Below, piece by piece: positions 40,785 to 57,433 of a DNA stretch of 64,000 bases (position 1 is its first letter; each line of letters starts with the position of its first letter). The notes beneath the pieces were generated by a model, which saw only the letters and a program-made list of their open reading frames with translations, made no database searches and was not told where the DNA came from. This stretch comes from Picrophilus oshimae DSM 9789. GTDB taxonomy: Archaea > Thermoplasmatota > Thermoplasmata > Thermoplasmatales > Thermoplasmataceae. The stretch is from assembly GCF_900176435.1 (NCBI RefSeq), contig NZ_FWYE01000001.1:248001-312000 (forward strand). The letters are read 5' to 3'. A program made the translations under genes and the position numbers.

Positions 40785-41573
40785 TTTTTTTAGCTCTGCC
40801 ATCTTTTTATCTATTAAATCCTTGTAGTTCAAATTATTCCCTGTTTTATAATAGTCCATCTTTAATGTTATCGCAAGCTTGTTGCATATTATTCTTGCAA
40901 GCTTTCCACGAGATTTTGCAGGCAGTGATGCAAGACCTGGATAGTTAAATATGATTCCATGCTTTGGGGTTTTTCCCGTGCCGTAAAATCTGAAAAACGA
41001 TTTCTCTGCACCCAAAATTTGAAGTGTGCTTGCAGGATATTTAATGAGATTCTTCAAGCCGCCGCTTCTGACAAGGTACTCCATTGTTAAATCGTAACCA
41101 AGCAATGACATTGTATTTGGCATGTAATCCTGCATTTTCTTCTTTATGTAATCATCAAGATATGTCCTGAAATCACATAATGAGCTGCCAAATGATCCAA
41201 GTGAGTTTTCTATCTCGTTTCCTGATATTGATTTGAAGAAGGTGCATGGATCCTTACTGTATTTAACATCAAGCATTTGAAAGAAAGGTATCAATTTTTC
41301 AAGGTACAGGTTTATTATCTCATTTATTTCCTTTTTTATCGAATATAGCTTTATTAAATACTGGTCACCTGAGAATTCATCTTTTAGCCTTTCTCTTTCG
41401 AAATCCAGAAGAAAATCCCTTAGATCCGGTACCTCCCCGCTTGGGATTTCCTCTGTTTCCGGTATCCTTCCATTCCTGAGATCCCTGAAGATTGCCATGT
41501 AGTTTTCTCTCAGGTTTTTGAACAGGTATATCTTTCCATCTATTATCTTTCCGTACCAAAGAATCTTTTCCAT
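40776..41573 (-). CDS. nop5: C/D box RNP core protein Nop5 (short form)
   Basis: 265 residues. The NOP domain is plain: MPNTMSLLGYDLTMEYLVRSG, STLQILGAEKSFFRFYGTGKTPKHG, KSRGKLARIICNKLAI. The N-terminal domain (LWYGKIIDGKIYLF) and a shortened coiled-coil precede it; most archaeal Nop5 proteins are about 370-420 residues. It bridges fibrillarin and L7Ae on C/D guide RNAs for 2'-O-methylation of rRNA. No fibrillarin gene is beside it. Its start has GGTGAT upstream, inside the 3' end of cbf5, giving a 197-base overlap in different frames. Confidence 0.88.
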   Translation of the reverse strand: MEKILWYGKIIDGKIYLFKNLRENYMAIFRDLRNGRIPETEEIPSGEVPDLRDFLLDFERERLKDEFSGDQYLIKLYSIKKEINEIINLYLEKLIPFFQMLDVKYSKDPCTFFKSISGNEIENSLGSFGSSLCDFRTYLDDYIKKKMQDYMPNTMSLLGYDLTMEYLVRSGGLKNLIKYPASTLQILGAEKSFFRFYGTGKTPKHGIIFNYPGLASLPAKSRGKLARIICNKLAITLKMDYYKTGNNLNYKDLIDKKMAELKKLR

Positions 41574-42426
41574 CATTATCACCGGTTTCTATCAAGACAT
41601 TATCAATATCAATTACCTTAAGATCATATATTTCATCGGCATTTACCATCATTGTACCAGTGGCAATAAGCTCATTTTTCTCGGTGTAAACTGCAACCAC
41701 GTCCCCCTTTTTTGGACTGCCGGTAATTGCATGTATGCCTGCAGGGTATATATCAGAACCATGTGCTATGTTTTTTAATGCCGTTTCCTTTACAATGACC
41801 TTTGGGTATTTAATAAATATGAAATCCATTGGTATAAATATATTTTTAAATAATTTTTCGTTTCCCATGCTTTTTAATTTAAATGCATCACTTACCTCCT
41901 GCAGTGTATGGCACATGGATTCATCGAATGGGCCGGTTCTTGTTCTCCTGAGCTCCGCCATCTGGCCTCCGGAACCAAGAACATAACCTATATCTGTGCA
42001 CAGTGTTCTTATATATGTTCCGGATTCGCAGCAAACCTTAAAAAGGACGAGTTTCTCATCCATTTCAAGCAGTTCAAGATTGTAAATTTCCCTTATGCGG
42101 AGTTCCCTGGAAACCGCGGATCTTACAGGGGGTATCTGGTATATTTTACCGGTGAATTCCTTAAAAACACTTTTTATGGAATCATAGTCATATTTATCGT
42201 ATGTTCTTAAAACTGAGACGTATTCCTTTGATTCCCTGTGAACTATGTCTATTAACTTTGTGGCCTTGCCCAGGGCCATGACAAGCACTCCGGAAACTCC
42301 AGGATCCAGTGTGCCTATATGACCTACCCTGGGCTCACCAGTGATATCTCTAATCCATGAATCTATCTGATGGCTCGTGGGCCCCTTCGGCTTGTCTACA
42401 ACAATGAAACCATTTAAATTACTCAT
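41377..42426 (-). CDS. cbf5: tRNA/rRNA pseudouridine synthase Cbf5 (TruB family) with basic C-terminal tail
   Basis: 349 residues. The catalytic Asp is D41 in VGHIGTLDPGVSGVLVMALG; PPVRSAVSRELRIR and CESGTYIRTLCTDIG are further TruB motifs. A PUA domain (about 205-285: KVIVKETALKNIAHGSDIYPAGI) follows. It is the catalytic core of H/ACA guide RNPs and also makes pseudouridine 55 in tRNA. The last 65 codons form a Lys/Arg/Gly-rich tail encoded by DNA that in another frame encodes the N-terminus of Nop5. Last but one in the ribosomal super-operon. Confidence 0.92.
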   Translation of the reverse strand: MSNLNGFIVVDKPKGPTSHQIDSWIRDITGEPRVGHIGTLDPGVSGVLVMALGKATKLIDIVHRESKEYVSVLRTYDKYDYDSIKSVFKEFTGKIYQIPPVRSAVSRELRIREIYNLELLEMDEKLVLFKVCCESGTYIRTLCTDIGYVLGSGGQMAELRRTRTGPFDESMCHTLQEVSDAFKLKSMGNEKLFKNIFIPMDFIFIKYPKVIVKETALKNIAHGSDIYPAGIHAITGSPKKGDVVAVYTEKNELIATGTMMVNADEIYDLKVIDIDNVLIETGDNDGKDSLVRKDNRWKDIPVQKPERKLHGNLQGSQEWKDTGNRGNPKRGGTGSKGFSSGFRKRKAKR

Positions 42427-42440
42427 TTATTTTGTATTGT

Positions 42441-42965
42441 TTACCTGCATTTTATCTTTTTGAATTCAATAATATCATTAACAATCTCATCTGGTGATTT
42501 TTTATCTGTGTCTATTATAATATCATAATAAATATAATTATTGTAATCTATACCATAGAACTCCATGTACCTTAAAATCTCTGACCTGTATCTTTCATTT
42601 AATGTTAAAATGTCTGTTTTATCCCTTTCCATTAACCTTTTGTAACGAATATCATCTGAGGCGTATAAATAAATCTTAAATGCTTCAATATTGTTTGTAT
42701 ATGCAATGTATGATGATAACCTTGATTCTAAAACTATATTATCATTATTTTTAAGAAAATTTAAAAGCATTTTATCCTGCTCATAGTCAATCTCCGGATG
42801 CGACTCACTGTATTTATTAAATTCCAGAAGGTTCATATTAAATTCCTCTGCCTTTTTCCTGAAGAAGTAACCACCGGAAATAAATGAATAATGTAATTTA
42901 TCGGCAAGTAAACGGCCAACTGTAGTCTTTCCTGAGCCGCTTTTGCCGCTTATTGTTATACGCAT
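42441..42965 (-). CDS. cmk: Cytidylate kinase
   Basis: 174-residue archaeal CMP kinase: P-loop ISGKSGSGKTTVGRLLA, FISGGYFFRKKAEE, and VLESRLSSYIAY. It phosphorylates CMP to CDP. It starts one base after the Oxa1-like gene, in the conserved archaeal order secY, adk, DUF106, cmk, cbf5; the eL34/eL14 genes often found around here are absent. Confidence 0.9.
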   Translation of the reverse strand: MRITISGKSGSGKTTVGRLLADKLHYSFISGGYFFRKKAEEFNMNLLEFNKYSESHPEIDYEQDKMLLNFLKNNDNIVLESRLSSYIAYTNNIEAFKIYLYASDDIRYKRLMERDKTDILTLNERYRSEILRYMEFYGIDYNNYIYYDIIIDTDKKSPDEIVNDIIEFKKIKCR

Positions 42966-42966
42966 C

Positions 42967-43653
42967 TCAATCAGCTTTCTCTATTACGTTTCTCTCAATC
43001 TTCTTAAGCTTGAAGCTGAAATCGAAGTACTTCATTATCATTGTTACAAAGTAACCAACGACTATGTCTGCTATCATGTACATTACGATCCACAGTGGGA
43101 AGAGCCATGCGTGCGTTGTTACTATATTTAGGTTATAGTCCCATGGCATTGAAACGTACTGGTATTTAAGCGATAATATGAATACATAGATCCATATTAT
43201 AATCAAAAAGAAGAAGATCTCCATGACGAACAGTGGCTTCATTGTGTTCATTTGAACGACCATCTGGTCAGCCTGGCGCTCCATCTGCATCTTCTGCAAT
43301 TTTTTGACCCTTACATTGTCACCCTCACGCATTGCCTCTCTCATTGCCTTGCTGTATGCCTTTGATACCATCTGCGCCTTTCCCATCTTGACCCAGTCAG
43401 TGAAAAAGTATCTTGGTATTGATGCCAGTAATCCTATGACTATACCTGTTAAAACAATGGTTATTATTGGAAATGCATAGTTAAAACCAAGCAATGGCAT
43501 GAAAACAACGTTAAGATCGCTGCCCAGGGGATTCCTTATACCAGGATCGCTGATTACGAATAATAGGGCAAGACCTGCAAACATGAAGACAAAGTTAAGC
43601 ATCATCATCTTCTGCATCTGCTTTTGAACCTGGACTGATGTGCTTGTTGCCAT
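42967..43653 (-). CDS. DUF106 membrane protein (archaeal Oxa1/YidC superfamily)
   Basis: 228 residues with three main hydrophobic segments, a cytoplasmic helical hairpin rich in Met, Lys and Arg (about 100-135: KMGKAQMVSKAYSKAMREAMREGD), and an MVVQMNTMKPLFV stretch entering the second core helix. This matches the archaeal DUF106/Ylp1 proteins related to YidC, Oxa1 and EMC3 that insert membrane proteins. Location beside secY fits that role. Its start overlaps the adkA stop by one base. Confidence 0.88.
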   Translation of the reverse strand: MATSTSVQVQKQMQKMMMLNFVFMFAGLALLFVISDPGIRNPLGSDLNVVFMPLLGFNYAFPIITIVLTGIVIGLLASIPRYFFTDWVKMGKAQMVSKAYSKAMREAMREGDNVRVKKLQKMQMERQADQMVVQMNTMKPLFVMEIFFFLIIIWIYVFILSLKYQYVSMPWDYNLNIVTTHAWLFPLWIVMYMIADIVVGYFVTMIMKYFDFSFKLKKIERNVIEKAD

Positions 43654-44198
43654 TATGCCAGCCTCCTTATAATATTCTCTGCAGCCAGCTCAGGATGCCC
43701 TGTTGGATTTGTTATAAAGTTAACAGTGGCACCCGAGAATACAGAATATGATATGGCAAACTGCCTGTTTACCATCTGATGCTCATATATATCATCTATT
43801 GTATCATCGTCCCTGTGCCTTGTGGGATCCTCTTCCCTTCTTTTTTTAATTTCCTTTGGATCAGCTTCTATTAAAAAGTATGATGAAACATTTAATTCAC
43901 GGAGGACCCACTCAGGCAAGCCAGGGAGGTAACCACCGGGTGATTTTATTGACATGTGTGTATCTATTATTATATTATCCATGGTTCCAAGCTTTTGTGA
44001 TGCGGAACGCTGAAGCTCAATCTGCCTTTCCACAGGGAGTTTTCTTATCTCATCACGGTCTTTAACAAGATTAGATGAAATTGCAAGGTCAAGCATGACA
44101 CTTCCAAAGTTCTTTACAGTGTAGCCTGACCTTGATGAAACGATATCGAGCACTGTCGATTTTCCAACTCCTGCAACACCTGCTATTACCACCCTCAT
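43653..44198 (-). CDS. adkA: Adenylate kinase (archaeal AdkA type)
   Basis: 181 residues with P-loop VVIAGVAGVGKSTVL, the archaeal-type FGSVMLDLA, and IIIDTHMSIKSPGGYLPGLP, the signature of the trimeric archaeal adenylate kinases. It equilibrates AMP, ADP and ATP. It abuts secY (no gap) with AGGTGGAT upstream of the ATG. Confidence 0.93.
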   Translation of the reverse strand: MRVVIAGVAGVGKSTVLDIVSSRSGYTVKNFGSVMLDLAISSNLVKDRDEIRKLPVERQIELQRSASQKLGTMDNIIIDTHMSIKSPGGYLPGLPEWVLRELNVSSYFLIEADPKEIKKRREEDPTRHRDDDTIDDIYEHQMVNRQFAISYSVFSGATVNFITNPTGHPELAAENIIRRLA

Positions 44199-45962
44199 TT
44201 ATCCACCTACGAAGAACTGCCTTATTATTGGGTGCATCTCCATTAGCTGCTCCCTGCCCATGGCCTCATAGAACTGTATTACTATACCAACTGCAAGCAG
44301 CAGTCCCGTACCGCTTGTATCTCCAACAGTTCCTATTAAATCGGCAGCGGCTGCAAGAAGACCCACAACTGCACCGCTAAATACCGTTATTGCAGGTATG
44401 TATTTGCTTAGAACACGCTCCATAACCCTTGGATCACGCCTGAATCCGGGTATCTGCATTCCGCTTGACTGTATCTGCTTTGCAACAGCACCTGCGCCCA
44501 TGTTTGTGGTTTCTATCCAGAACTTCGCGAATATTATACTGAATATTATCATGAATGCAAGGAATGCTATTACATGTATTACCTCCTCCAATGGAGTGTG
44601 CCCAAACAGCACGTTCTGTGATACGCTTGGCTGCAGTATTGGGAATAACCAATCCGAGAGACCGTTCGGTGTGTACAGATAATATGCAAGGCCACCAATC
44701 GGCGTTGTGGATGATATACCAAGGGCACTGGCCTGTGCTGCTGTGGGATAAACTCCAAGCAGTTTATCATGGCCAAGTATTGGTATTCTGCTCAGCACAG
44801 GGCTCTTCCAGAATAATAATGTCCACATTGATATGTTTGCAAGAAGTGCGGTTGCAAGTATCACAGGTATGTTTGATGCATATAACAGCTGTAATGGATA
44901 CCTGCCTCTGGCTCCCCTTACCCTTTCATGTGCTATTGGGAGCTCTATCTTGCTGCTCTGGAAGTATGCCACTATGAAGAATATAAGCACGGTTCCAAGC
45001 AATGCTATCATTGGATTTGGCTGCGCAAAAAGTATCTGCTCCATGCCGGTGTTTGTCAGATAGCTTCCAGGTGCCATCCAGAAGAGATACAAAGCCTTTG
45101 GAATTGCACCTGCTGGCGGATTTGACAATGATAGCGGCGAGGTTATTGTTGATGGCAGCCAGTTAAATGTTCCTATGAAAAGCTGTTCCGATACATCTGC
45201 CGCTATAAACAGCGATATACCTGAACCTATACCATACTTTGAAACAACCTCATCCATCAGGAAGACAAGATATGAACCGAAGAATAACTGCAATATTATG
45301 ATTGTCTGCGCAAGGAACTCACCATAACCCGGAACAACATGATTTATGTTTGCCACCAGGGATGCATCCGGGACCAAAAATCCAAAAGCCTGCGGTATTG
45401 CCTCGACAAAGATCATTATTATAACAAGCAGCTTCTGAACACCCTGATATATTGCCTTATCATCAGGATTTGTTAAATCAAGATTAAATATCTTTGCACC
45501 TGCAAAAAGCTGCATAACTATACTTGCAGTTACAATAGGGCCTATACCAAGATCCATTAATGATCCTGAGGCACCTGCAAATATTGCCCTGAATGCCGCG
45601 AAAACATCAACTGTATCCTTTACATTTAAACCATATATGTATATGTTTGTCAGCGCAAAGTAAAGTATAACTATAAGGCCTGTCCACATTAATTTATATT
45701 TAAATGGAACATGGCCCTTGGCCTTTTTTATTGCCGGAAGCTTGGCTGTTAGGTTTTCAAGTCCGTATAGCTTTGATTGTTTTGGGCCCTTATAGCTGAA
45801 TACAAGGTATGCTATTAAAAATATTGGTGATGAAAGCAATGCCACAAGGAAGAGCTTGAAGCCAGTGTAGTGATCAAAGTAGTAAAATGCAAGTATATAA
45901 AGCGCAAAGACGAATATTACCGGAATTGCAATACCCTTATTTCTTTCAATCTCATTCGTCAT
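44199..45962 (-). CDS. secY: Preprotein translocase subunit SecY
   Basis: 587 residues, longer than most SecY proteins (about 430-500), with ten core helices and extended outer loops (for example between TM5-TM6 and the segment around PILGHDKLLGVYPTAAQAS). Family hallmarks include MDLGIGPIVTASIVMQL, YGIGSGISLFIAADV and AHERVRGARGRYPLQLLYASNIPVIL (the ribosome/SecA-facing loop). It forms the protein-conducting channel. Starts inside the uL15 gene (11-base overlap). Confidence 0.96.
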   Translation of the reverse strand: MTNEIERNKGIAIPVIFVFALYILAFYYFDHYTGFKLFLVALLSSPIFLIAYLVFSYKGPKQSKLYGLENLTAKLPAIKKAKGHVPFKYKLMWTGLIVILYFALTNIYIYGLNVKDTVDVFAAFRAIFAGASGSLMDLGIGPIVTASIVMQLFAGAKIFNLDLTNPDDKAIYQGVQKLLVIIMIFVEAIPQAFGFLVPDASLVANINHVVPGYGEFLAQTIIILQLFFGSYLVFLMDEVVSKYGIGSGISLFIAADVSEQLFIGTFNWLPSTITSPLSLSNPPAGAIPKALYLFWMAPGSYLTNTGMEQILFAQPNPMIALLGTVLIFFIVAYFQSSKIELPIAHERVRGARGRYPLQLLYASNIPVILATALLANISMWTLLFWKSPVLSRIPILGHDKLLGVYPTAAQASALGISSTTPIGGLAYYLYTPNGLSDWLFPILQPSVSQNVLFGHTPLEEVIHVIAFLAFMIIFSIIFAKFWIETTNMGAGAVAKQIQSSGMQIPGFRRDPRVMERVLSKYIPAITVFSGAVVGLLAAAADLIGTVGDTSGTGLLLAVGIVIQFYEAMGREQLMEMHPIIRQFFVGG

Positions 45963-46362
45963 TTTCTATCGTTATACCGTGAACTGAAAGCTTATTTATA
46001 GCCTTTTCGGTTGCCCTTTCAATTTTTATCCTTGATTTTATATCGAAATCACCAGTTCCAAGAAGCTTTGTGTATCCTGCACCTTCAAGATCTATTACAT
46101 CATCATGGACAAAGCCATTCTCCTTTAGCTTGTCATATATATTTGCAAGCTCTTCAAGGGTTATTGGATTTTCATATTTCTTTGAATGGCTTTTAAATCC
46201 GTGTACACCAAAGTGATCCCTGTCATATTTTAATAGCCAGACCCACCTGTGTTTTCCAAGGCCTGCCATGCCGTTTCCGCCTTTTTTACCCTTGCCTCTG
46301 CCTGCCTTCATGCCCCTGCCGTAGTGTCCGCCTCTTAACTTCTTAGTTCTCGTTCTTACCAT
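45952..46362 (-). CDS. rpl15: Ribosomal protein uL15
   Basis: 136 residues. The basic Gly-rich N-terminus [22 protein letters not shown] is diagnostic and wraps rRNA; it ends with an acidic NDE tail. The start overlaps uL30 by 20 bases. Confidence 0.95.
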
Positions 46363-46834
46363 TTAAATCAACCCCCGGTACAAGCATTCTTCTAATAAGA
46401 TTATTTATATCCTTTCCACGATAGCCAGATGAACCTTTCTCTTTATATGGTTTTAATATTGATTCGTAGCCACCCCTGGGAGGGTTTAATCTTATAACAG
46501 GAACCAGATTCTTAAAATCCTTTAGCATCTTTCCGGACATGATCGAATCTGCCATTTCAGATATCGATGAAAAACCAAGCTCCTTTATGTTTTCGCTGTC
46601 CAGTTTCTTTCTGCCGACCATCAATGCCCTTTTTTCAAGGAGTAATTCCAGTGTTTCTTTATCAAGCTCCCCCCATGTAAGATAATCCTTTGCCGTGTTT
46701 AACATGCCCATGAAATCCGGCGTTTCCCTGACTATAACGAGGTGATTTATCCTGTTAAGATTTAAAAGCTCCGTGGTTTTTTTCGCCGCCGGTTTTAAAC
46801 CGGTTCTGCCCCTAATCCTTATTACTGCCAGCAT
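46343..46834 (-). CDS. rpl30: Ribosomal protein uL30
   Basis: 163 residues of archaeal length. [26 protein letters not shown] is the ferredoxin-like uL30 start, followed by the archaeal C-terminal extension with RLNPPRGG and ending [21 protein letters not shown] site precedes its ATG; the start overlaps uS5 by 23 bases. Confidence 0.94.
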
Positions 46835-47477
46835 TTCCTATACCCCCTACATATATTGGTGTGCTTAGATTTATCTTTGGATTAATCTTTATTGAAACGG
46901 TCTTCTTTAATGCATCGAATGTTGCCAGAGCATAGTTTACAGTTGTCTTTGTGTGGCCTGCGGCAAATCCCCAGGCATCGTCTATACCGGCCATTCTTAG
47001 TATTACCTTAACAACATCACCAACTGCAAGGCCAACACCCTGGGGTGCAGGCTTCAATGTTACCGAGACCGAGCCTGACTTGCCGTTAACAAGGAACGGC
47101 AGCGTGTGTGGTTTACCACAGCCGCATTCCCATGAACCGCAGCCCCTCTTTATTTCTATTATATTTAATTTTGCATTGTCTATTGCCTTTTTTATTGCTG
47201 GTGCAGCCTCCTTTGCCTTGCCGCGGCCAACGCCAACATAACCGTTACCATTACCGACAACGGCTGTTATTGAATAATTCATTCTTCTTCCTGAGTCTGT
47301 CATCCTCTGTGCTCTCTCAATGTTTATTACCTCATCCTTAAGATCCGGTATCAGGTAATCTACAATCTGATATTCCTTTAATGGTAGCTTTGAGTGCAGT
47401 GCCTCGCTGATGGTTTTTATCTCACCATTTGCAACGAGCCTGCCCAGCTCAGTCCTTGGAGTCCATTCCTCATCCAT
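46812..47477 (-). CDS. rps5: Ribosomal protein uS5
   Basis: 221 residues from ATG 47477, with AGGTGA upstream; the in-frame GTG at 47486 is not needed. [26 protein letters not shown] is the dsRNA-binding signature. It lies at the mRNA entry of the small subunit and affects fidelity. An in-domain [13 protein letters not shown] gives three cysteines typical of archaeal uS5. Confidence 0.95.
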
Positions 47478-47478
47478 A

Positions 47479-47955
47479 TTATTCACCTATCTTTGATTTT
47501 ATTTCATTAATGTCCAGCCTCTGCTTTAAATGCTCACCGTTGAGCCTGGACTCATCAGAGAATATATCCTCATCGGCATTTATCTCAAGGCCGCCGTCTA
47601 TAAGGCCCTTTATTGCTGCCGCAATTCTTCCGCCCTTTCTGAATATTGCGCGGCCTGTGTCAACTACGGCTCCTGAGATGCCAAGTGAGATGCCCTTCTT
47701 TGCGGCCATGTAACCTGCAAGGTAATACATCTGTATATTATTACCATCAATGTTAAAGGCCTTTTTTAATGTTTTATTGGTTACAGTTACAAGCACATGG
47801 TCTCCCTCAGGAACGTAATCAACCAGCTGTATTATTAGGCCCTTTCTTGTCTGCCTTATAACAGCCCTTGTTTCCCTTGATATTACAAGCCTGTACCTTT
47901 TCCTATAGTCTGTAACGCCTTCACGCCTTCTTTTAAGAACTGGTGGAGTTTTCAT
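47479..47955 (-). CDS. rpl18: Ribosomal protein uL18
   Basis: 158 residues; binds 5S rRNA. Opens [23 protein letters not shown] and contains AGYMAAKKGISLGISGAVVDTGRA. ATG 47955 has GGGTGAT upstream and lies 23 bases inside the eL19 gene. Confidence 0.95.
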   Translation of the reverse strand: MKTPPVLKRRREGVTDYRKRYRLVISRETRAVIRQTRKGLIIQLVDYVPEGDHVLVTVTNKTLKKAFNIDGNNIQMYYLAGYMAAKKGISLGISGAVVDTGRAIFRKGGRIAAAIKGLIDGGLEINADEDIFSDESRLNGEHLKQRLDINEIKSKIGE

Positions 47956-48409
47956 TTTTATCACCCTTTAAAAGGCCTGCAGCCTGTATATGGTTTCTTA
48001 GCTGCGCCCTTGAAACAAAGCTTCCGCTCTTTATTATTCTGTAGTACCTTCTGTAAGTTTTTTTATCGATTTTATTGTTTGTTTTTAATTCCCTTAGTTC
48101 CTTTCTTAAGGCACGTATTCTTGATATCCATCTTCTCTTCCTTGGAAAGCGGGCATACTTTGTTCCACGCACAGAACCCTCGCCGCGCCTTCTACCCTTT
48201 GCCAGCTGTTCTATCCTTTTCTTTAATCTATAATTTGAATTGCCCTTTTTCTGCTTTTTCTGTATAATATGAAGATCAATAAGCTTTCTAACATCCTCGC
48301 GTGATGTTGCATCAAGGACCTGATCAATGCTGTTTGTATCTATCCAGACCCTTGACACACCGACCTTCATCTCATCAGCTGCTATCTGCTTTACGCTCTG
48401 AACTTTCAT
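47933..48409 (-). CDS. rpl19e: Ribosomal protein eL19
   Basis: 158 residues; [27 protein letters not shown] and [23 protein letters not shown] are eL19 hallmarks. GGGTGG precedes the ATG, which overlaps the eL32 stop by four bases. Confidence 0.95.
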
Positions 48410-48810
48410 TTTACCACCCTGTTAAAAACGTGTATGCCAAGGTTATCTGCCTCTTCCTCTATTTCCTTTCTCTTCCTCATGCCAACGCTTGAGGCTATCC
48501 TTGCACCCTCCCTATCAGGATTTATGCTTTTTAAATCGTTTACATTGTAAACAAGTTTCTCTGCAAAACCTGATGGGTGCAGTCCACGAACTGCAGCCGG
48601 TGAACGGTAACCTGCGTCAACAACCGGTGGCCTGTATCCAAGGTGCTCCCTTAGCTTTGAGTGCTTTCCCCTTGGCTTCCTCCATGATTCATTAAATTTT
48701 TTGTATCTAAACCACTCCTGCCTTCTGAATTCAACGCGCTTCCTTGACATTCTGTTTTTTATCTTTAGCAATCTCTTCTCATCCTTTGAAAGTAAAGGTT
48801 TTTCACTCAT
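48406..48810 (-). CDS. rpl32e: Ribosomal protein eL32
   Basis: 134 residues; [32 protein letters not shown] is the eL32 core, with [12 protein letters not shown] later. Its start lies 8 bases inside uL6. Confidence 0.95.
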
Positions 48811-49345
48811 TTACCTCACCCTTTAGCAGGAAGATTCCGTCCTGGAATACCCTGGCATCAAAATGCCTTATGTATGTTGCACGCTCTATGTTTGCCGCGG
48901 TCTCGCCTATCTTTCTTTTGTCTATACCATTTATTGTAATCCTGTCTCCTTTTACAGAGACCTTGCAGCCATCCACGATCTTTGCCGATCTTGGCGATTT
49001 CTCCCCAAGGAAGTTTTCAACTATTAATTTATCGCCGCGCACTGAAACCCTCATCGGGAAATGTGTAAAATCAATTTTCATATGATACTCAAAGCCCTTT
49101 GTTACACCCTCTATTAGAAGCTTTGTTTCAGAATACCATGTGCCAACTATGCCCTTTGTATATTTATTATTCTTGCTTGTTGCTATCTTTACGCTTGAAC
49201 CTTCTATATATGCCTTTACGTAATTGTCTCTAAATATCCTTGAGGCTTCACCAAGCTTTCCCTTAATTTTTAATTCGTTATTTTCCATTGTTGCCTGAAC
49301 ATCATCAGGCAGCTTTATCTCAGCCTGTTCAGTCCACTTTATCAT
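48803..49345 (-). CDS. rpl6: Ribosomal protein uL6
   Basis: 180 residues with two uL6 domains: [22 protein letters not shown] and the second-domain [26 protein letters not shown] precedes the ATG. Confidence 0.95.
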
Positions 49346-49354
49346 GATAACACC

Positions 49355-49744
49355 TCAGTAAACATATGCAAGAAGCTTACCGCCTATGCCAAGCTTTCTT
49401 GCCTCTATATGGCTCATAATGCCCTTCGTCGTTGTAAGTATTATTATTCCAAAGTCCTGTGCAGGCAGATACCTTGATTCATACCTTTCTATGTTTGAGT
49501 TCTTTACCGATAATCTTGGTTTTATAACACCGCAGTTGTTTATCGTGTCGCTTAATTCAACACGGAATTTGCCGCCGCGTTCCTCCTCTATGACCTCAAA
49601 GCTTTTTATGTAGTTGTAATCCTGCATAACCTTTAGTATCCTGCCTATCATGACTGACGCAGGGCCAATTATTACCTCGCTTTTTCCTATTCTTGAAGCA
49701 TTCTTTATTGTGTTTATAACATCATTTAACGGGTCATGATTCAT
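49355..49744 (-). CDS. rps8: Ribosomal protein uS8
   Basis: 129 residues; DPLNDVINTIKNASRIGKSEV start and FGIIILTTTKGIMSHIEARKLGIGGKLLAYVY end, the rRNA-binding core of uS8. GAGGTGATT precedes the ATG. Confidence 0.95.
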   Translation of the reverse strand: MNHDPLNDVINTIKNASRIGKSEVIIGPASVMIGRILKVMQDYNYIKSFEVIEEERGGKFRVELSDTINNCGVIKPRLSVKNSNIERYESRYLPAQDFGIIILTTTKGIMSHIEARKLGIGGKLLAYVY

Positions 49745-49753
49745 GCAATCACC

Positions 49754-49912
49754 TCAGCTGTACTTTCTGAAACCTATCTGATTTGCGGTTTCTCTAAAGC
49801 ACTGCCTGCACATCCTTATACCATATCTCCTTACAAGACCCCTCTTTCTGCCACACCTGACACAGCCTTCCTTGTGGCCAAAATTCTTTCTTGGTTCCAA
49901 TTTTATCTGCAT
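49754..49912 (-). CDS. rps14: Ribosomal protein uS14 (zinc type)
   Basis: 52 residues, below common length cut-offs. Translation opens [16 protein letters not shown] and has C17-x2-C20 and C35-x2-C38 (CVRCG and CRQCF), a zinc ribbon; it ends QIGFRKYS. It fits exactly between uL5 (one-base gap) and uS8. Confidence 0.94.
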
Positions 49913-49913
49913 T

Positions 49914-50444
49914 TTAATCACCTATTATCTTAACATTGAAGTTTTCCTGCAAATACTTTATTGTTTCTTCCTTGGATATCCTCATCTTTTTCGGTATGTG
50001 CATTTTTTTTATCCTTCTCTTTTCTATGCGGTATCCACCACGCCTTCTAAAGACTATTGCTATATCCATACCGAATATACCAATATCAGGGTCATATTTC
50101 ATGCCCTTAAAGTCCGTGTAATCAGATATGCCAAAATAGGCATTGCCATTCTTATCGAATGAGTAAACCGGTATCTTGTAATCCTTTGCATAGAATGCCT
50201 CCTTAAGAAATGACAGGGCATCATCCTTTCTCAATGTCACCTTTACGCCAATGTTAAGCCCCTTTCTTATATTAAAGTCCCTTACGGTTCTCTTTGCTGA
50301 TGTAAACGTTGGTTTGTGGTGTGTAAGCAGTTCAAGCACCTTTGCTGCCCTGTTTAGTCTCTCTCCAGCGGCACCAACACCAATGTTTACTACCACCTTG
50401 TCTATAAATATTTCTCTCATTGAGTTTTCAGTTGTTTCCATCAT
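49914..50444 (-). CDS. rpl5: Ribosomal protein uL5
   Basis: 176 residues; [32 protein letters not shown] is the uL5 start, and it contacts 5S rRNA. Tandem ATGs at 50444/50441 follow GGAGGCGAT; the first overlaps the eS4 stop by four bases. Confidence 0.95.
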
Positions 50445-51145
50445 TCTGCTATCGCCTCCGGCATTGAGAATGTGTACTTGGGACTGGCCATTACAAACAC
50501 ATAGGAGCTTACTGTTGAAAAGCCCTCGTTCATATGAACCATGTTTTCACCGGAAGAGCTTTTTATCTCTATTGATTTTATCGTTGCTATCTCACCAACG
50601 TGTGAGCCGCCAGTTATGAAAACACGGTTTCCTGGTGCAAATTTAAGAACGTCAACTATCTCCTTTTTTGGTATTTTTACAAGAACGGAATCGCCGTTTT
50701 TAATATCCTTTCTATCGGTTACCATTGTCGAGCCATCGTGGAACGATATTTGTATCCTTCCGCCCTTTACATAGGTCTTGCCCTTCACGCGGAGCAGCTT
50801 TAGGCCCTTCGTTTCGCCAGGCTTTGGCAGTATAACGAGCTTGCCCTTCCTGTCATATGATACTAAATAATCGTTGCCTGATACTGTTAATGTATCCATA
50901 AAGCCTATACCACGCCTTCTCTCCTTAACGACCTTACCATCCACCATTACAAGTGAATTTGCCATTATCCTTGTTATTTCACGCTCCTTGTCACCAAGCT
51001 TAAGATAGTCCCTTAACGCTATTAATAATGGGATTGAGCTGTCCTTTTTATGTGAGCCTGGTAGGCTGTTAACTGCCCAGAACCTGCTCTTCCTTGCTAT
51101 TTTAAGCTTCCTGGGAGCCATCATTATTTTTGTCTTCGTTATCAT
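50441..51145 (-). CDS. rps4e: Ribosomal protein eS4
   Basis: 234 residues with S4-like RNA-binding (IMANSLVMVDGKVVKERRRGIGFMDTL), central and KOW parts (GNRVFITGGSHVGEIATIKSIE). The ATG at 51145 is preceded by a strong GAGGAGG six bases away, which is itself codons of the acidic uL24 tail, so the genes overlap by 44 bases; the inner ATGs at 51124/51121 lack a site. Confidence 0.94.
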   Translation of the reverse strand: MITKTKIMMAPRKLKIARKSRFWAVNSLPGSHKKDSSIPLLIALRDYLKLGDKEREITRIMANSLVMVDGKVVKERRRGIGFMDTLTVSGNDYLVSYDRKGKLVILPKPGETKGLKLLRVKGKTYVKGGRIQISFHDGSTMVTDRKDIKNGDSVLVKIPKKEIVDVLKFAPGNRVFITGGSHVGEIATIKSIEIKSSSGENMVHMNEGFSTVSSYVFVMASPKYTFSMPEAIAE

Positions 51146-51566
51146 TTAAATCCTCCTCTTTAATTTCATTGGCTTCCTCTTTATCAGCCCCGGTAACATT
51201 CTCATCACTTTCCTTTGTATCATTTGAGGTTTCCTCAGGAACCTCTGGCGGTGGTAAATTCTTTCTTGCGGCTATTTCCCTTAATCTTTCATAGCGATCA
51301 TTTCTTGAAAGATCAAGCTTTGTTATTGATATATTGCTGTGATCTATGAAGAATGGAACCTGCTTTCCATCGGCCTTGGATATTGTAACGCCTTCTATTG
51401 AAACTTTCATGGTTTTATGATCAACATCCACTACCTTGCCGCCCTCACCTTTTCTTGATCCTGAGATAATTTTTACTATATCCCCCTTTGCCACGGGGAA
51501 TCTTCTTATACCGTATTTTTTCCTTAAATCCTTTGACAGTGAAACATTCACCTTGTTATTTATCAT
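51102..51566 (-). CDS. rpl24: Ribosomal protein uL24 with acidic C-terminal tail
   Basis: 154 residues. The KOW domain is VAKGDIVKIISGSRKGEGGKVVDVD, followed by an archaeal extension. From about residue 108 an extra 45-residue tail, rich in Glu, Asp and Asn (EETSNDTKESDENV and on), is unusual for this basic family. GAGGTGTTATT precedes the ATG. Confidence 0.94.
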   Translation of the reverse strand: MINNKVNVSLSKDLRKKYGIRRFPVAKGDIVKIISGSRKGEGGKVVDVDHKTMKVSIEGVTISKADGKQVPFFIDHSNISITKLDLSRNDRYERLREIAARKNLPPPEVPEETSNDTKESDENVTGADKEEANEIKEEDLNDNEDKNNDGSQEA

Positions 51567-51575
51567 AATAACACC

Positions 51576-51974
51576 TCACACAATGGTTGAGGATATTGCA
51601 GCAATCCTCGGCCAGCGCTCTGCGGCCTCTCTTGCAACAGGGCCCTTTATCTCAGAGCCACGAACCTCGCCATCAGGGGTGACGAGCACTGCAGCGTTGT
51701 CCTCGAATTCTATCATTGTGCCATCGGCGCGTCTGTATGGTCTTCTCTGCCTTACAACAACTGCGTAAACGACCTTGCTTCTCATCTCAGGTGTGCCCTT
51801 TTTTACACTGGCTATGAACATGTCGCCAACGCCTGCGGCCGGTATTCTCTTTGCAACTGTGTGCAGTGCCTTTACATCGATTAGGCTTATCATCTTTGCA
51901 CCTGTGTTATCCACACATGGTATTAATGCACCAAGTGGTAATCCTCTTGTTTCCCTTCCAGAGATGCCTTTCAT
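51576..51974 (-). CDS. rpl14: Ribosomal protein uL14
   Basis: 132 residues; LGALIPCVDNTGAKMISLIDVKA and YAVVVRQRRPYRRADGTMIEFEDNAAVLV are uL14 signatures. Abuts the uS17 stop; GAAGGTGA precedes the ATG. Confidence 0.95.
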   Translation of the reverse strand: MKGISGRETRGLPLGALIPCVDNTGAKMISLIDVKALHTVAKRIPAAGVGDMFIASVKKGTPEMRSKVVYAVVVRQRRPYRRADGTMIEFEDNAAVLVTPDGEVRGSEIKGPVAREAAERWPRIAAISSTIV

Positions 51975-52295
51975 CTAGTTCACCTTCTCAACAACAACGA
52001 ATGATATGGTTTTTGCAAGCTTTCTGCATTCCGCTATTTTTACCCTGTCCCCTGGTCTTACATCTATGCAACCAGGCAGATGTGCATGAAACTTTGATAT
52101 CTTTGTTTCATACCTTTCATACTTTTTTATTAGTCTTCTTGATTCCCTTTTAAGAACGATACTACCGTTCATCTTTGTTGATACAACAGTCCCTACTATT
52201 ATCTGACCATGGATCCTTAGATTACCATGGAACGGGCACTTCGGATCATTGCATGTTCTTTCAGGTTTTTTAACATCAATTCCTATGTTTTCCAT
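51975..52295 (-). CDS. rps17: Ribosomal protein uS17
   Basis: 106 residues from ATG 52295 (GGGTGA upstream; an in-frame GTG at 52304 is not needed). TCNDPKCPFHGNLRIHGQIIVGTV and CIDVRPGDRVKIAECRKLAKTISFVVVE are archaeal uS17 motifs. Starts 20 bases inside the Rpp29 gene. Confidence 0.95.
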   Translation of the reverse strand: MENIGIDVKKPERTCNDPKCPFHGNLRIHGQIIVGTVVSTKMNGSIVLKRESRRLIKKYERYETKISKFHAHLPGCIDVRPGDRVKIAECRKLAKTISFVVVEKVN

Positions 52296-52581
52296 TATAT
52301 TCACCCTTTAATCTTTTTATTATTCTTCTAAGCTCCTTAACGCGATCTTCCGGCCTTATAGAAATTACATCGCCATTTATGTCAAAGCAGGTGCCGTCGA
52401 GATTTATGCGGAAGACACTGCCCTTCTTTGGTATTACTTTCCTACCATTTTTGGTCATTATTACAAACACGTTCTTTGTTTCATCGACCACGTAACCATG
52501 AACCTTCAGGTTCAGCGGGTTTGTGGACCGAATCACACTGATATCTCGCATCATATACTCGGCGGCGTATTCTTCATACAT
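52276..52581 (-). CDS. rnp1: RNase P protein component 1 (Rpp29/Pop4)
   Basis: 101 residues with the Sm-like Rpp29 barrel: NLKVHGYVVDETKNVFVIMTKNG and VIPKKGSVFRINL, ending with a basic helix. It supports 5' maturation of tRNAs. The position between aIF1 and uS17 is the standard archaeal one. Confidence 0.92.
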   Translation of the reverse strand: MYEEYAAEYMMRDISVIRSTNPLNLKVHGYVVDETKNVFVIMTKNGRKVIPKKGSVFRINLDGTCFDINGDVISIRPEDRVKELRRIIKRLKGEYNGKHRN

Positions 52582-52881
52582 TTAAACCATCTGGACCTTG
52601 AAACCCATGGATTCAAGCTGCGCCCTGGCGGTTTCCCTGTGATCTCCCTGAAGCTCTATTATCTTTCCGTCCTTAACAGTGCCGCCCGACGCAACCTTCT
52701 TTTTTAAAGATTTTGCTATCTCGTTTATATCCTCTACCTTTGGGTCGATACCCTCTATTAAGGTCACGACCTTACCGTATCTTCTTTTATCAACGCTTAT
52801 CTTAACAACCTCATTATTTCTGTCGAAACCTTCCCATGGCTGTAATTCCTTTGGTATGCCGGTAAAGTTCTTATCCTTCAT
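52582..52881 (-). CDS. Translation initiation factor aIF1 (SUI1)
   Basis: 99 residues; VVKISVDKRRYGKVVTLIEGID and ASGGTVKDGKIIELQGDHRE are the SUI1 core that binds the 30S P site and controls start selection. GGAGG lies upstream; the start overlaps uL29 by four bases. Confidence 0.95.
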   Translation of the reverse strand: MKDKNFTGIPKELQPWEGFDRNNEVVKISVDKRRYGKVVTLIEGIDPKVEDINEIAKSLKKKVASGGTVKDGKIIELQGDHRETARAQLESMGFKVQMV

Positions 52882-53075
52882 CTTTTCTTTTCCTCCATAA
52901 CAGTTAATACCCTGGCAATCTGCCTTCTTATTGACCTCATCTTACCAGGACTTGATGGAGCACCACCCATTGCAACGGATGACCTTTCCCTTAAAAGGGA
53001 TTCCTTAAGTGATGAAAGCTTTTCATTAAGTTCTTCATCACTCATTTCCCTCAGCGCCTTTGCTCTCAGCTCCAT
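52878..53075 (-). CDS. rpl29: Ribosomal protein uL29
   Basis: 65 residues from ATG 53075, preceded by [37 protein letters not shown] and [13 protein letters not shown] are typical. It begins 38 bases inside the uS3 gene. Confidence 0.94.
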
Positions 53076-53691
53076 TGTTTTCCACCTCCTTCTCAATCTT
53101 TACAGGTTTTATCTCTATATCATCAGGTAATCTGTAATTGCTTTTAAGTATTCTAACGGAAACACCTATGATTCCAGTCTTCAGCTTTGCCTCTGAGAAG
53201 CCGTATTCCACACCTGATCTTGCAGGTTCACCCGAGTATTTTATCTTTCCAAACATGAATTTCTGTGCCCTTGCCCTTTCACCTGAGATCTTTCCACCTA
53301 TTCTTATTAGAACTCCAGGAGCATTAAGATCAATCATCTTTCTTAATGATGTATTTCCTGCCTTTCTGTAATTCCAGCCCTTTTCAAGTGATAGTGCTAT
53401 CTTTTTTGATGCTATCTGTGGATTTAAATCAGGTGTGTTTACCTCCTTTACCTCTATCTGGGGCGATTCTATGGCGAATCTCTTTTCCAGGGTCTCAGTC
53501 ATTTCCTTTATCTTTGTTCCGTGTCTCCCAATGACGAGTCCGGGTCTGTTTACATACAATGCTATGTTTGTTCCATATGGTGTTCTCTTCATCTCCATGC
53601 CACCGAAGCCTGCATTGTCATTTTCCTTTCTGAGATATTCTGAGACGAGGAGCCTTTTTATATTATCATTTACGAATCTCTTCTCCTTCAT
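53038..53691 (-). CDS. rps3: Ribosomal protein uS3
   Basis: 217 residues; KH domain with [22 protein letters not shown] and C-terminal [22 protein letters not shown]. It ends in a Glu/Gly/Asn-rich tail ([13 protein letters not shown]). Start overlaps uL22 by four bases. Confidence 0.95.
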
Positions 53692-54137
53692 TCCTCACCA
53701 CTTTCCCTTACAACGACTTCAAGATTGACAAGATCCTTGAAGAAGGCCCCGGCCCTGCCATATGCCTTTGGTGTGTACTTTTTTATCATCCTACCCTTTG
53801 ATACTGCTATGTGAACGATTTCCAGTGAATCCGAGAGTCCTTTGAACTCGGCGTTGGCTGAAACGTCTTCAAGCAGCTTTTTGAATGCCCTTGCAGCCTT
53901 AACTGGATATCTTCCAGGGCCAATGCCCTTCCTGTGTGATACCGAATCCATGTATCTAAAGTATGGAACCGGAACCTTTTTTTCTATTACATTGTCAAGG
54001 ACGTTCTTTGCACTGTCAAGATCCATTCCCTTAAGGAAATGGGCAACATTAACGGCATCCTTTAATGATATGTCGATCTCGCGTATCCTGGCCCTTGCAC
54101 TTCTCTCTGGAAACTCCTTAATACTGTATCCTTTCAT
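53688..54137 (-). CDS. rpl22: Ribosomal protein uL22
   Basis: 149 residues from ATG 54137 (GTGAT upstream). [21 protein letters not shown] and [28 protein letters not shown] are archaeal uL22 motifs. The last residues are acidic (SGEE). Confidence 0.95.
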
Positions 54138-54142
54138 ATCAA

Positions 54143-54598
54143 TCACTTCAGCGGTAAGAACTTTGATGACCTGGTAGCTCCAACTCCTGGACCCGAGTGT
54201 TTAACCTCCTTTCTGGTCAAGGCAAACTCACCAAGATAATGGCCTATCATCTCTGGCTTTATTTCAAATTTTATATAAGAGTTACCATTATATAATTCTA
54301 TCGTCTTTCCAACGAACTGCGGCAGAACAATGAGATCACGCACATGTGTCTTTATGTTTTCCTTATCACCCAGCAGCTTTTCGTATAATTTTTCCTGTTC
54401 ATGGTTCATCTGCCTTGAGTAAGAGCGCCTTGCCCTTGCTGGAAGCAAAGGCAAAAGCTCATTCAATTCCATGTTCTGGAGCTCCTCAAGGGAGTGGCCC
54501 CTGTAAGAGAACTCCTTCGCACGACCCGTTATGGCCTTCTGGGCCTTTCGGGCCTTTCTTTTTATTGATTTTACTGACACCTGTCTTTTAGCGACCAT
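54143..54598 (-). CDS. rps19: Ribosomal protein uS19
   Basis: 151 residues; archaeal/eukaryotic-type N-terminus [30 protein letters not shown] then [30 protein letters not shown]. The start overlaps uL2 by 11 bases. Confidence 0.95.
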
Positions 54599-55289
54599 AC
54601 TTCTTCCTCCTCTTTGGTGACAATCTACCTACCTTTCTTCCAGGAGGTGTGCCACGCCCAACAGTGCTCGGCCTTCCAACATGCTGATGGTTTCCACCAC
54701 CGTGTGGATGGTTCACGGCATTCATGGCAACACCTCTTACTGTATATGGCCTCTTGGCCTTGCTCTGCAGGTACTTTATATGTGTTCCGGCCTTTAGTAT
54801 TGGTATATCCCTGGCCCCAGAGCCGGCTATAAAGCCCACGGTGGCCCTGCACCTTGGATGAAATTCCTTGTTTACACCGGATGGCAGTTTCAATGAAACG
54901 TATGCGCCATGGCTTATCACAAGAGCTGCCGTTCCTGCAGCCCTGCAAAACTTTCCACCATCACCGGGTATGCTCTCTATATTGTAAACGTATGATCCAT
55001 CAGGTATATTTGCAAGATATGTTACATCCCCAATTGCCGGTGAATCAATATCGCCAACGTGTATCTCCTGATTAACATATGCACCGTTGAATGCTATCAT
55101 GTAATTCTTCTCGTTTTTTTCGTTTCTAATTAAAAGAACCGGTGTGTTTCTACCCGGTGCCTGGATAATATCCTCTATTTTATATGTTCCATCCCTTGGA
55201 TACTTTATATCGCCAAGGTGCCTGTGGCTGGGGCTTCTGTAAACAAGACTCCCGTGGCCACGCCTCTGTGCAACTATATGTTTTCCCAT
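54588..55289 (-). CDS. rpl2: Ribosomal protein uL2
   Basis: 233 residues; [26 protein letters not shown] with the peptidyl-transferase histidine is conserved. AAGGTGAT precedes the ATG. Confidence 0.96.
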
Positions 55290-55298
55290 AAGATCACC

Positions 55299-55547
55299 TT
55301 AGAATATGCCCATTCTTCCGCCAACCTCCTCGGCGGAGAAGTCCTTGGCCAGTGTTACTATGGCCTTTTTACCATTTTTGGCTATCATCATATTAACTTT
55401 TGTTACCTTAACGTTAAACCTTGCTTCTACCTCATTTTTTATTGCTTCCTTTGTTGCCTTTCTGTTAACCAGGAACGTTATTTTATTCTCCTTTTCCATC
55501 ATTAAAGTGGTTTTTTCAGTTACTATTGGACTTATTATATAATCCAT
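55299..55547 (-). CDS. rpl23: Ribosomal protein uL23
   Basis: 82 residues; PIVTEKTTLMMEKENKITFLVNRKATKEAIKNEVE; exit-tunnel protein and docking site for SRP and SecY. GGAGGTG lies upstream, and the ATG overlaps the uL4 stop (TAATG). Confidence 0.95.
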   Translation of the reverse strand: MDYIISPIVTEKTTLMMEKENKITFLVNRKATKEAIKNEVEARFNVKVTKVNMMIAKNGKKAIVTLAKDFSAEEVGGRMGIF

Positions 55548-56311
55548 TACTGCACCTCCTTAAGAGAAGATATTGCCGATTCAGTGAATATTGTTAATCT
55601 TCCACCTGTTCCTCCAGGGGCAAGCTTTCTTATGCTCAGGCTGCTTGGCGTTGCTATATCAACACCGGGCAGTGATGAAAATGCCTTTAAATTATCGTAT
55701 GATGTGCCAACAATCAGCAGGCTCTTTGGCTGCTTGTATGTTCTGTTTCTCATCTTTCCACGCCCTGGCCTTATCTTTTTGTTCTCCTTTGATCTTAGTA
55801 TATCATCGTAAAGACCAAGCTTCTTGAAAAATTCAACAGCATCCCTGGTCTTTTTTATCTTTTCAAGATCGTTTGTGACAATAACAGGAAATGTGAGATT
55901 TGAGTCTTCATCTATCCTGTGTCCCCTTTTTATAATATGCTCCCTTGATGCAGTTAAAGCAATGGCGGTGAACCTTGCAAGCTTGCGCTCCCTCTTGTTT
56001 ATCTTTTTATATAACACCTTATCGCTTCTCGGTGCATGCGCGCTCTTACCACCAACAACGCTGCCCAGAAGTACCGCCCTGGAGCCACCAGCCAGTCTTG
56101 GTATCCTTGATATTCCGTGGTTTGGTCCCAGGTTCTGGCCGACGCGTCTCATACCGGCATCAGGACTTGCCCCATAGGGCTGTCTGTATGATAAAGTGAT
56201 TGCCCTAAAGGCCTCCCTTAAAATGTCCTCTCTAGGCCTTATCTCGAAGATTTTTGGAAGTTCCATCTCACCCTTAATTTCTCCATTTAAATCGTATATA
56301 TTTGCCTTCAT
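55547..56311 (-). CDS. rpl4: Ribosomal protein uL4
   Basis: 254 residues from ATG 56311 (GGGTGATT upstream). SYRQPYGASPDAGMRRVGQNLGPNHG and PRLAGGSRAVLLGSVVGGKSAHAPRS form the tunnel loop. The C-terminus has APGGTGGRLTIFTE. Confidence 0.95.
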   Translation of the reverse strand: MKANIYDLNGEIKGEMELPKIFEIRPREDILREAFRAITLSYRQPYGASPDAGMRRVGQNLGPNHGISRIPRLAGGSRAVLLGSVVGGKSAHAPRSDKVLYKKINKRERKLARFTAIALTASREHIIKRGHRIDEDSNLTFPVIVTNDLEKIKKTRDAVEFFKKLGLYDDILRSKENKKIRPGRGKMRNRTYKQPKSLLIVGTSYDNLKAFSSLPGVDIATPSSLSIRKLAPGGTGGRLTIFTESAISSLKEVQ

Positions 56312-56313
56312 GA

Positions 56314-57303
56314 TCAATCACCCTGCTTTGATTCCCTTGATGCGTATGTTACCTCAATGCTCTCCACTGCTGGCCTTGTCTGCCTGGCAGGATCTCTCAT
56401 CTTTATTAATCTCTTTGCAGGTCCGGGAACAGAGCCAAATAAAAGAACGTAATCGTTTCTGACAATACCGTAGTTCAGGAAGCCGCCTTTTACATTAATA
56501 TCATCAACATGATCCTTTGTGTCGAACTTTATTATTCTTATATTATGTATTGTCCTCTGGTGAAATCCAACCTGACCAGCCTGTGGTACCGTGTTTCTGA
56601 CCCAGTCCGGATGCCATGGACCAAGTGTTCCTATCATACGCCTGTGCTTTCTGTTCTTCCTTGGAAGTAATTTAACCCCAAACCTTTTTACAACGCCCTG
56701 GAATCCCTTACCCTTTGTTACGGCTATTACATCCACAAAATTGCCGGGCTTTGAGAAATCGCTGAAGCTTATGTTTGAACCAAGCCTTTCCTTTGCATAT
56801 TTTATTCTGTTTTCTATGGTTGAACCACCTATCCTTATCTCAAAGATCTCGGGCGTTTTTGATGGAACACCAGAAACAAGCTGCGGATTTGTGTGAACCA
56901 TTAAACGGACGTCATCAACGTCCTTAACCTCGATGCCCTTCTTATGCCTGTTTATCTTGTTTATTCTCCTTAATACATCCTTATCAATGTTTTCTGCCCA
57001 TTCCTCGGATATTACCTCAAGACCATTATCGCCCCTTGCGTAATACCTTATTGACATCACGGTAAGAGGCGGCACCTCAACAACAGTAACCGGAGCCATT
57101 ATAACCTGACCCGCGGTCACACTATTCTTGCGGTAATCAACCATCTGTATATGGGTCATACCAACCTTGTAACCAGCGAATGCCTGAACCTTCGTCTGGC
57201 CCTCTATCTCAGGCCATGAACGAATGTCCCCCTGAATTCTTTTAGCGCGTACCCTGGGGTAGTACGCCATAGATCCCCTACGGGAATGATGCGGAGTTGC
57301 CAT
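56314..57303 (-). CDS. rpl3: Ribosomal protein uL3
   Basis: 329 residues from ATG 57303, giving the conserved start MATPHHSRRGSMAYYPRVRA; GGGTGAT lies upstream. The frame stays open 21 codons further (to 57366) with unconserved sequence that also forms a hairpin, so it is treated as leader. Typical motifs: AGYKVGMTHI, GKGFQGVVKRFGV, RKHRRMIGTLGPWHPD. First gene of the operon. Confidence 0.95.
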   Translation of the reverse strand: MATPHHSRRGSMAYYPRVRAKRIQGDIRSWPEIEGQTKVQAFAGYKVGMTHIQMVDYRKNSVTAGQVIMAPVTVVEVPPLTVMSIRYYARGDNGLEVISEEWAENIDKDVLRRINKINRHKKGIEVKDVDDVRLMVHTNPQLVSGVPSKTPEIFEIRIGGSTIENRIKYAKERLGSNISFSDFSKPGNFVDVIAVTKGKGFQGVVKRFGVKLLPRKNRKHRRMIGTLGPWHPDWVRNTVPQAGQVGFHQRTIHNIRIIKFDTKDHVDDINVKGGFLNYGIVRNDYVLLFGSVPGPAKRLIKMRDPARQTRPAVESIEVTYASRESKQGD

Positions 57304-57380
57304 TTTTATCACCCAACCGTTACACATTCTATGCAGGAAATAAGATCCTGCATAACGGGATGCCATTAAGCATTGCCCAT
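57304..57380 (-). promoter_or_regulatory. Leader of the ribosomal-protein operon with a four-codon upstream frame
   Basis: From the TATA-like box at 57403-57410, transcription should begin near 57380, where ATG GGC AAT GCT TAA (57380-57366) forms a minimal frame. Its stop overlaps ATG 57366, which is in frame with uL3. The remainder holds a hairpin and the uL3 ribosome binding site. Confidence 0.4.
57317..57358 (-). other. Stem-loop in the uL3 leader
   Basis: ATGCAGGA (57331-57338) and TCCTGCAT (57346-57353) pair perfectly over 8 bases around a 7-base loop. CCGTT (57317-57321) and AACGG (57354-57358) extend the stem across a 9-base one-sided bulge. Confidence 0.6.
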
Positions 57381-57402
57381 AGTGTATGGTCTAAAGTAGA
57401 GG

Positions 57403-57410: not shown

Positions 57411-57433
57411 CATTTTATTTATTAACTTTATTA

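Follow-up and report, generated by a model that had tools for sequence, protein, structure and literature searches.

The operon of ribosomal protein uL3 is preceded by a leader that is predicted to form a three-way junction RNA, in which a closing stem, P1, carries two hairpins, P2 and P3. The leader is interpreted here as a cis-acting r-leader that belongs to an uncatalogued, phylum-wide RNA family, and to which a ribosomal protein encoded in the operon binds, lowering translation. The probability of this interpretation is put at about three in four. All features described below are on the minus strand of the window, the 64,000-nucleotide stretch of DNA that was analysed, which belongs to an assembly of 1.53 Mb.

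The uL3 operon

The uL3 gene (56314-57303) is the first gene of the operon and encodes 329 amino acids from ATG 57303 (TIGR03626, E 1.8e-142). The putative operon (41377-57303) consists of 29 close-packed open reading frames, running from uL3 to Cbf5, a count that bears out the ribosomal operon of about 30 genes given in the preliminary description of this DNA. NCBIfam matches at E<=1e-8 were obtained for 27 of the 29 frames, which are uL3, uL4, uL23, uL2, uS19, uL22, uS3, uL29, a SUI1 factor, an RNase P component, uS17, uL14, uL24, eS4, uL5, uS14, uS8, uL6, eL32, eL19, uL18, uS5, uL30, SecY, adenylate kinase, CMP kinase and Cbf5. The frames at 45952-46362 and 42967-43653 have no NCBIfam match at 1e-8. 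Judged by its position, the former should be uL15.

An ATG at 57366 shares the frame of uL3, opening a reading frame of 350 amino acids, and gene callers may pick it as the start. The uL3 starts of the relatives correspond to 57303, and any in-frame upstream ATG was found in 2 of 98 leaders. On this pattern of conservation, a longer uL3 starting from ATG 57366 is rejected.

Structure of the leader

The leader is larger than the range of 57304-57380 assigned to it earlier, which begins too late, and includes the additional 5' stretch 57394-57381. The minimum-energy fold of 57394-57301 is exactly the P1/P2/P3 junction, with an energy of -29.8 kcal/mol and a z-score of -2.92; one of 200 shuffled sequences folded equally well. 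The 80 nucleotides of the preliminary description, which lack the 5' strand of P1, give a z-score of -2.20. The z-scores are modest in four single relatives, ranging from -1.25 to -2.12.

The 5' strand of P1 (57382-57391) is composed of GACC (P1a), A57387, which belongs to an internal loop, and TACAC (P1b), and is kept in the order and in the relatives. The 3' strand (57315-57325) is composed of GTGTA (P1b), the internal loop letters AC and GGTT (P1a). P1a is formed by 57391-57388 with 57318-57315, and P1b by 57386-57382 with 57325-57321. The internal loop between them, A x AC, is asymmetric. The P2 hairpin (57357-57378) has GGG/CCC and TGC/GCA as its paired segments, which are separated by an internal loop, CAA x U. 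Across the leaders this loop has the asymmetric form CAA x N. The P3 hairpin (57330-57354) has a perfect stem of 8 base pairs, 57354-57347 with 57337-57330, and a loop of 9 nucleotides. The stem is the one that had been noticed earlier in front of uL3. Its sequence is variable and covaries in close relatives.

The Shine-Dalgarno sequence GGGTGAT, read correctly in the preliminary description, is at 57308-57314, between the 3' end of P1, which it adjoins, and ATG 57303. Its GGTGAT is complementary to ATCACC in the 3' end of the 16S rRNA of the same genome, GGATCACCTCC.

Transcription start

The distance between the centre of an archaeal TATA box and the transcription start is usually about 26 nucleotides. 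A conserved TATA box, TTAATAAATA (57416-57425), is present in 12 of 12 leaders from three genera (g1, g2 and g5), and its centre is 26-33 nucleotides before P1 in all 12. The start is therefore predicted at about 57394 (57392-57396). The spacing was also determined in a set of 96 leaders with enough upstream sequence. In the window's own family the centre of the best TATA-like box is mostly 27-32 nucleotides before P1, with some outliers, and in family f5 of the same order it is 31 nucleotides before P1 in 13 of 13 leaders.

The letters of the preliminary description, as well as its stem and Shine-Dalgarno site, were confirmed, but its transcription start at 57380 was not. That start had been deduced from the box TTAATATACC (57410-57401), which has the highest TATA score in the window's own genome and is centred 16 nucleotides before P1. 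The conserved TTAATAAATA, at a matching spacing, points to about 57394 instead. Furthermore, a start at 57380 is rejected because the 5' strand of P1, which is kept throughout the order, would be lost. The TTAATATACC box may give rise to a second start.

Conservation and covariation within the order

The uL3 gene is present in 104 of the 117 genomes sampled from the order, and upstream stretches were taken for 102 of them; G073 and G040 were omitted because their uL3 starts are cut. The relatives compared include Acidiplasma aeolicum and Ferroplasma acidarmanus. Both strands of P1 are found at the expected place before uL3 at 98 of the 102 loci. Three of the remaining four (L003, L021 and L077) are truncated at the ends of contigs, with partial matches to the model. 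In the 98 leaders, P1 is paired at six of its eight positions without exception, comprising all three ACC/GGT pairs of P1a and three positions of P1b. The other two positions of P1b are paired in 84 of 98, and the exceptions belong nearly all to f5. The pair types of P1 switch jointly, from U-A to G-C, from A-U to G-C and from C-G to U-A. In the internal loop of P1, A occurs in 94 of 98 leaders and AC in all 98. In the window's own family, all 63 leaders have the six pairs of P2 complete, and 59 of them have CAA. Elsewhere in the order a complete P2 is found in 3 of 5 leaders of f2, 4 of 16 of f3 and 4 of 14 of f5.

Covariation was evaluated in alignment A2, which has 31 sequences chosen from 57 representatives. 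At the true register 96.8% of its cells are paired, compared to 30-42% (maximum 42.1%) when the strands are slid, and 31 cells are changed on both sides, compared to 6.4 in shuffled alignments. RNAalifold, applied to a mixed MAFFT alignment, recovered only 5 pairs, all of P2, because P3 was misaligned, and given structures were used instead. Covariation of P3, the lack of which would have counted as a refutation according to the preliminary description, was examined in ten close relatives with 8 distinct sequences. The hairpin withstands this check, since five of the 8 pairs have changes on both sides, and 90.6% of the cells pair. Of the 98 leaders of the order, 71 have a P3 region that folds better than shuffled sequences, with a z-score below -2. 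Nevertheless, P3 is the most variable of the three arms and is not the main element of the leader that it had been taken for. The leader thus has a conserved secondary structure with covariation, as r-leaders do, and the earlier idea that a structured leader could control the operon through a ribosomal protein repressor is supported by this covariation as a possibility.

Distribution of the leader

A covariance model of the leader, R1, was used to search within the window's own phylum. It has one match in the window and one in the whole genome, where the next place has an E value of 6.4. Of 100 loci of the order searched (L101 and L102 were outside this set), R1 matches 86; it fails at L100 and at 13 of the 14 loci of f5. 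R1 also matches 234 of 400 genomes sampled from the class and 271 of 389 sampled from the phylum, two samples that overlap and were searched with strict filters that lose weak matches. Fetching of matches outside the order gave 35 + 20 = 55 leaders. All 55 have uL3 downstream, and 54 have it close by. The leader is therefore located in the 5' UTR of a ribosomal protein operon, as r-leaders are, its transcription being predicted from the TATA spacing. P1 was parsed by a script in 52 of the 55, and the AC of its loop is present in all 52; the remainder are L143, L151 and L183. L143 and L151 have a UACGG variant, in which an A-U pair replaces the U-A or G-C of the others. In the 52 parsed leaders, which are from other orders and classes, all six pairs of P2 are formed, and CAA is present in 49.

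In L183 (genome G516) the leader is about 300 nucleotides before uL3, and there is hairpin-like sequence in between. Assembly G049 has two copies of the leader, G049:C20:8-97, which is at a contig end, and G049:C89:38541-38627; it may represent a strain mixture.

In the 14 leaders of f5 (L086-L099), P1b is divergent and a canonical P2 is missing; one of the 14 is matched by R1 at E<=1. Nearly all of them have two non-standard positions in P1b (C.A and A.C), and P2 is altered. By a reading of P1 together with the TATA spacing, they are probably a divergent form of the uL3 leader. Family f15 of the class has no junction leader before uL3 in the 8 of 8 genomes read with filters off, and uL3 at L100 (genome G024) likewise has none, even with filters off. 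The leader is therefore dispensable. In f15 (L276 and L278-L284) a TATA-like box is near uL3, corresponding to a much shorter leader.

Alternative explanations

One alternative builds on the preliminary description, in which transcription starts at 57380. It assumes a leaderless four-codon frame with a stop coupled to ATG 57366, leading to a longer uL3 or to a translation attenuator. The frame, ATG GGC AAT GCT TAA (57366-57380), does exist; it encodes M-G-N-A-stop from ATG 57380, its TAA overlaps ATG 57366, which is in the frame of uL3, and the strongest-scoring TATA box of the genome would fit its start. However, of the 98 leaders, 21 have ATGGG at the same site, 17 encode MGN and only 2 encode MGNA-stop. 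Upstream frames vary from 3 to 34 codons in length, and two run into uL3. Thus the conserved frame that a uORF or a leaderless attenuator would have was not found in these leaders, and the four codons are judged to be a chance occurrence. The GGGCAAT letters owe their conservation to the stem and loop of P2, which they make up. Taken together with the rarity of an in-frame upstream ATG and with the loss of the P1 strand, this makes the coupled-frame explanation very improbable. It is even less probable that the conservation reflects DNA, such as a promoter or a regulator site, with the RNA being irrelevant. The element is just downstream of the TATA box, but the two-sided compensatory changes in P1 and P3, and the retained pairing of the variable P3, are properties of RNA.

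A structured leader that has no repressor, and that protects the 5' end or ensures a high constant rate of initiation, is the least improbable of the alternatives, albeit an unlikely one. It would agree with the lack of a known ligand and with the presence of the core before uL3 only, and a structured 5' end right before the Shine-Dalgarno sequence could serve stability. On the other hand, the arms change across the phylum while the loop letters A, AC and CAA are kept, a pattern that suggests a bound partner and not just stability. The partner might not be an operon product but a small molecule or an ion, or else a protein such as L7Ae with its gene elsewhere, although this is less likely still. 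In its favor, a junction whose internal loops are conserved is reminiscent of an aptamer, PMC7247131 (section 7) cautions that RNAs of this sort may in some cases not bind a ribosomal protein, and in Sulfolobus the mRNA of L7Ae is repressed by L7Ae itself (PMC5539422). Nevertheless, the leader has a ribosomal protein operon as its only context in the 55 of 55 cases read outside the order, and, as for L7Ae, direct reading of the P1 and P2 loops, A x AC and CAA x N, does not show the 3-nucleotide bulge with subsequent G.A/A.G pairs that a k-turn has.

Proposed mechanism

An r-leader bound by a protein of its own operon would function as follows. Transcription from about 57394 would place the complete junction in the mRNA. 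A surplus ribosomal protein encoded in the operon would bind the junction and its internal loops. Binding would steady P1, the 3' strand of which ends at the base immediately preceding the Shine-Dalgarno sequence, and the closed P1 would block the 30S subunit, reducing translation of uL3 and of the genes downstream. The first guess for the ligand is uL4, a tentative and somewhat doubtful assignment. It is ranked first by the rule, given in section 7 of PMC7247131, that a protein already known as a ligand should be favored when the operon encodes it. The ligand may also be uS8, uL15, uL24, uL2 or uL3.

In some other families a row of AGAGAG, CUCUC and GAGAGGG is situated between the core and the ATG. 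It is present in 14 of 14 chosen leaders (alignment A6: L124, L127, L129, L131, L133, L137, L139, L140, L142, L148, L153-L155 and L194). CUCUC can pair with either of its neighbors, the second of which contains the Shine-Dalgarno purines, and several of these leaders fold with the purines masked. The CUCUC stretch looks like a separate output part. Because the same core precedes it in these families, the junction core looks like a sensor that is joined to exchangeable output parts. In the window's own lineage the output would be a direct steric block of the Shine-Dalgarno sequence, and in other families a competing anti-Shine-Dalgarno hairpin. It is conceivable, at somewhat less than even odds, that the core is a ribosomal protein sensor that dates from the ancestor of the phylum and resembles a riboswitch in combining a kept core with these lineage-specific outputs.

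Little is known about the control of archaeal ribosome production at the RNA level. A leader that heads the main ribosomal operon in most of the sampled genomes of a phylum would be unusually old and wide in its distribution. Its spread provides a natural set of variants for binding studies, and the question of which ribosomal protein senses the ribosome supply in archaea becomes directly testable.

Comparison with known regulatory RNAs

The bacterial S10-operon leader is bound by L4, resulting in feedback on the whole operon. The uL3 leader has the same operon head, and the feedback proposed here would also involve the entire operon. The bacterial leader is a different RNA, however, and has no Rfam match here. 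Searches of Rfam 15 gave 0 matches in the leader stretch of the window's genome at E values up to 10, and no leader match in 16 diverse relatives at E values up to 1.

Resemblance to the rRNA binding site is frequent among r-leaders, although they need not have it. Mimicry of rRNA was considered as well, by sequence and simple descriptors, and no convincing match emerged in 16S and 23S loci, a result that weighs against the proposed interpretation. Comparison of R1 with nine rRNA loci, with filters off, had a best E value of 1.3, which was due to a spurious fragment of P1. Seven 23S and seven 16S rRNAs were also scanned with motifs and descriptors, and the matches were scattered, none of them being common across species. 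A loose likeness of GxG-CAA to rRNA, presumably to helix 89, was examined and dropped.

Earlier examples of r-leaders are described in PMC7247131 (Eckert and Weinberg 2020), among them an archaeal one upstream of rplC. This one, the nearest of the catalogued leaders, is the predicted L4-Archaeoglobi leader (RF03135, a name also used in PMC7779021), which precedes rplC-rplD-rplW-rplB (PMC7247131, Table 1), is reported for Archaeoglobi and is rated as borderline there. It resembles the uL3 leader in being a predicted archaeal leader at the same uL3 operon head. The two are set apart by a search with the RF03135 covariance model (85 positions), which does not match the leader in any of 10 leader-bearing genomes at E values up to 10; its two weak matches (E 1.13 and 7.22) fall away from the leader. 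A literature search that covered titles, beginnings of abstracts and selected passages, mainly outside the subscription journals, returned no description of the uL3 leader. Taken together with the results for Rfam 15 and RF03135, this is the basis for regarding the leader as a new RNA family of the r-leader kind.

The archaeal S15 and eL15 leaders are also predicted r-leaders supported by covariation (PMC7247131), but they belong to other operons and other lineages and have no Rfam match here. Autoregulation by an archaeal ribosomal protein that masks the Shine-Dalgarno sequence in the 5' UTR has been described for L7Ae (PMC5539422). The L7Ae leader is a k-turn with G.A pairs, whereas the uL3 leader is a three-way junction without a k-turn. 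Because its predicted three-armed fold is common to many distant relatives, the uL3 leader suggests an old, uncatalogued form of feedback control on ribosome production.
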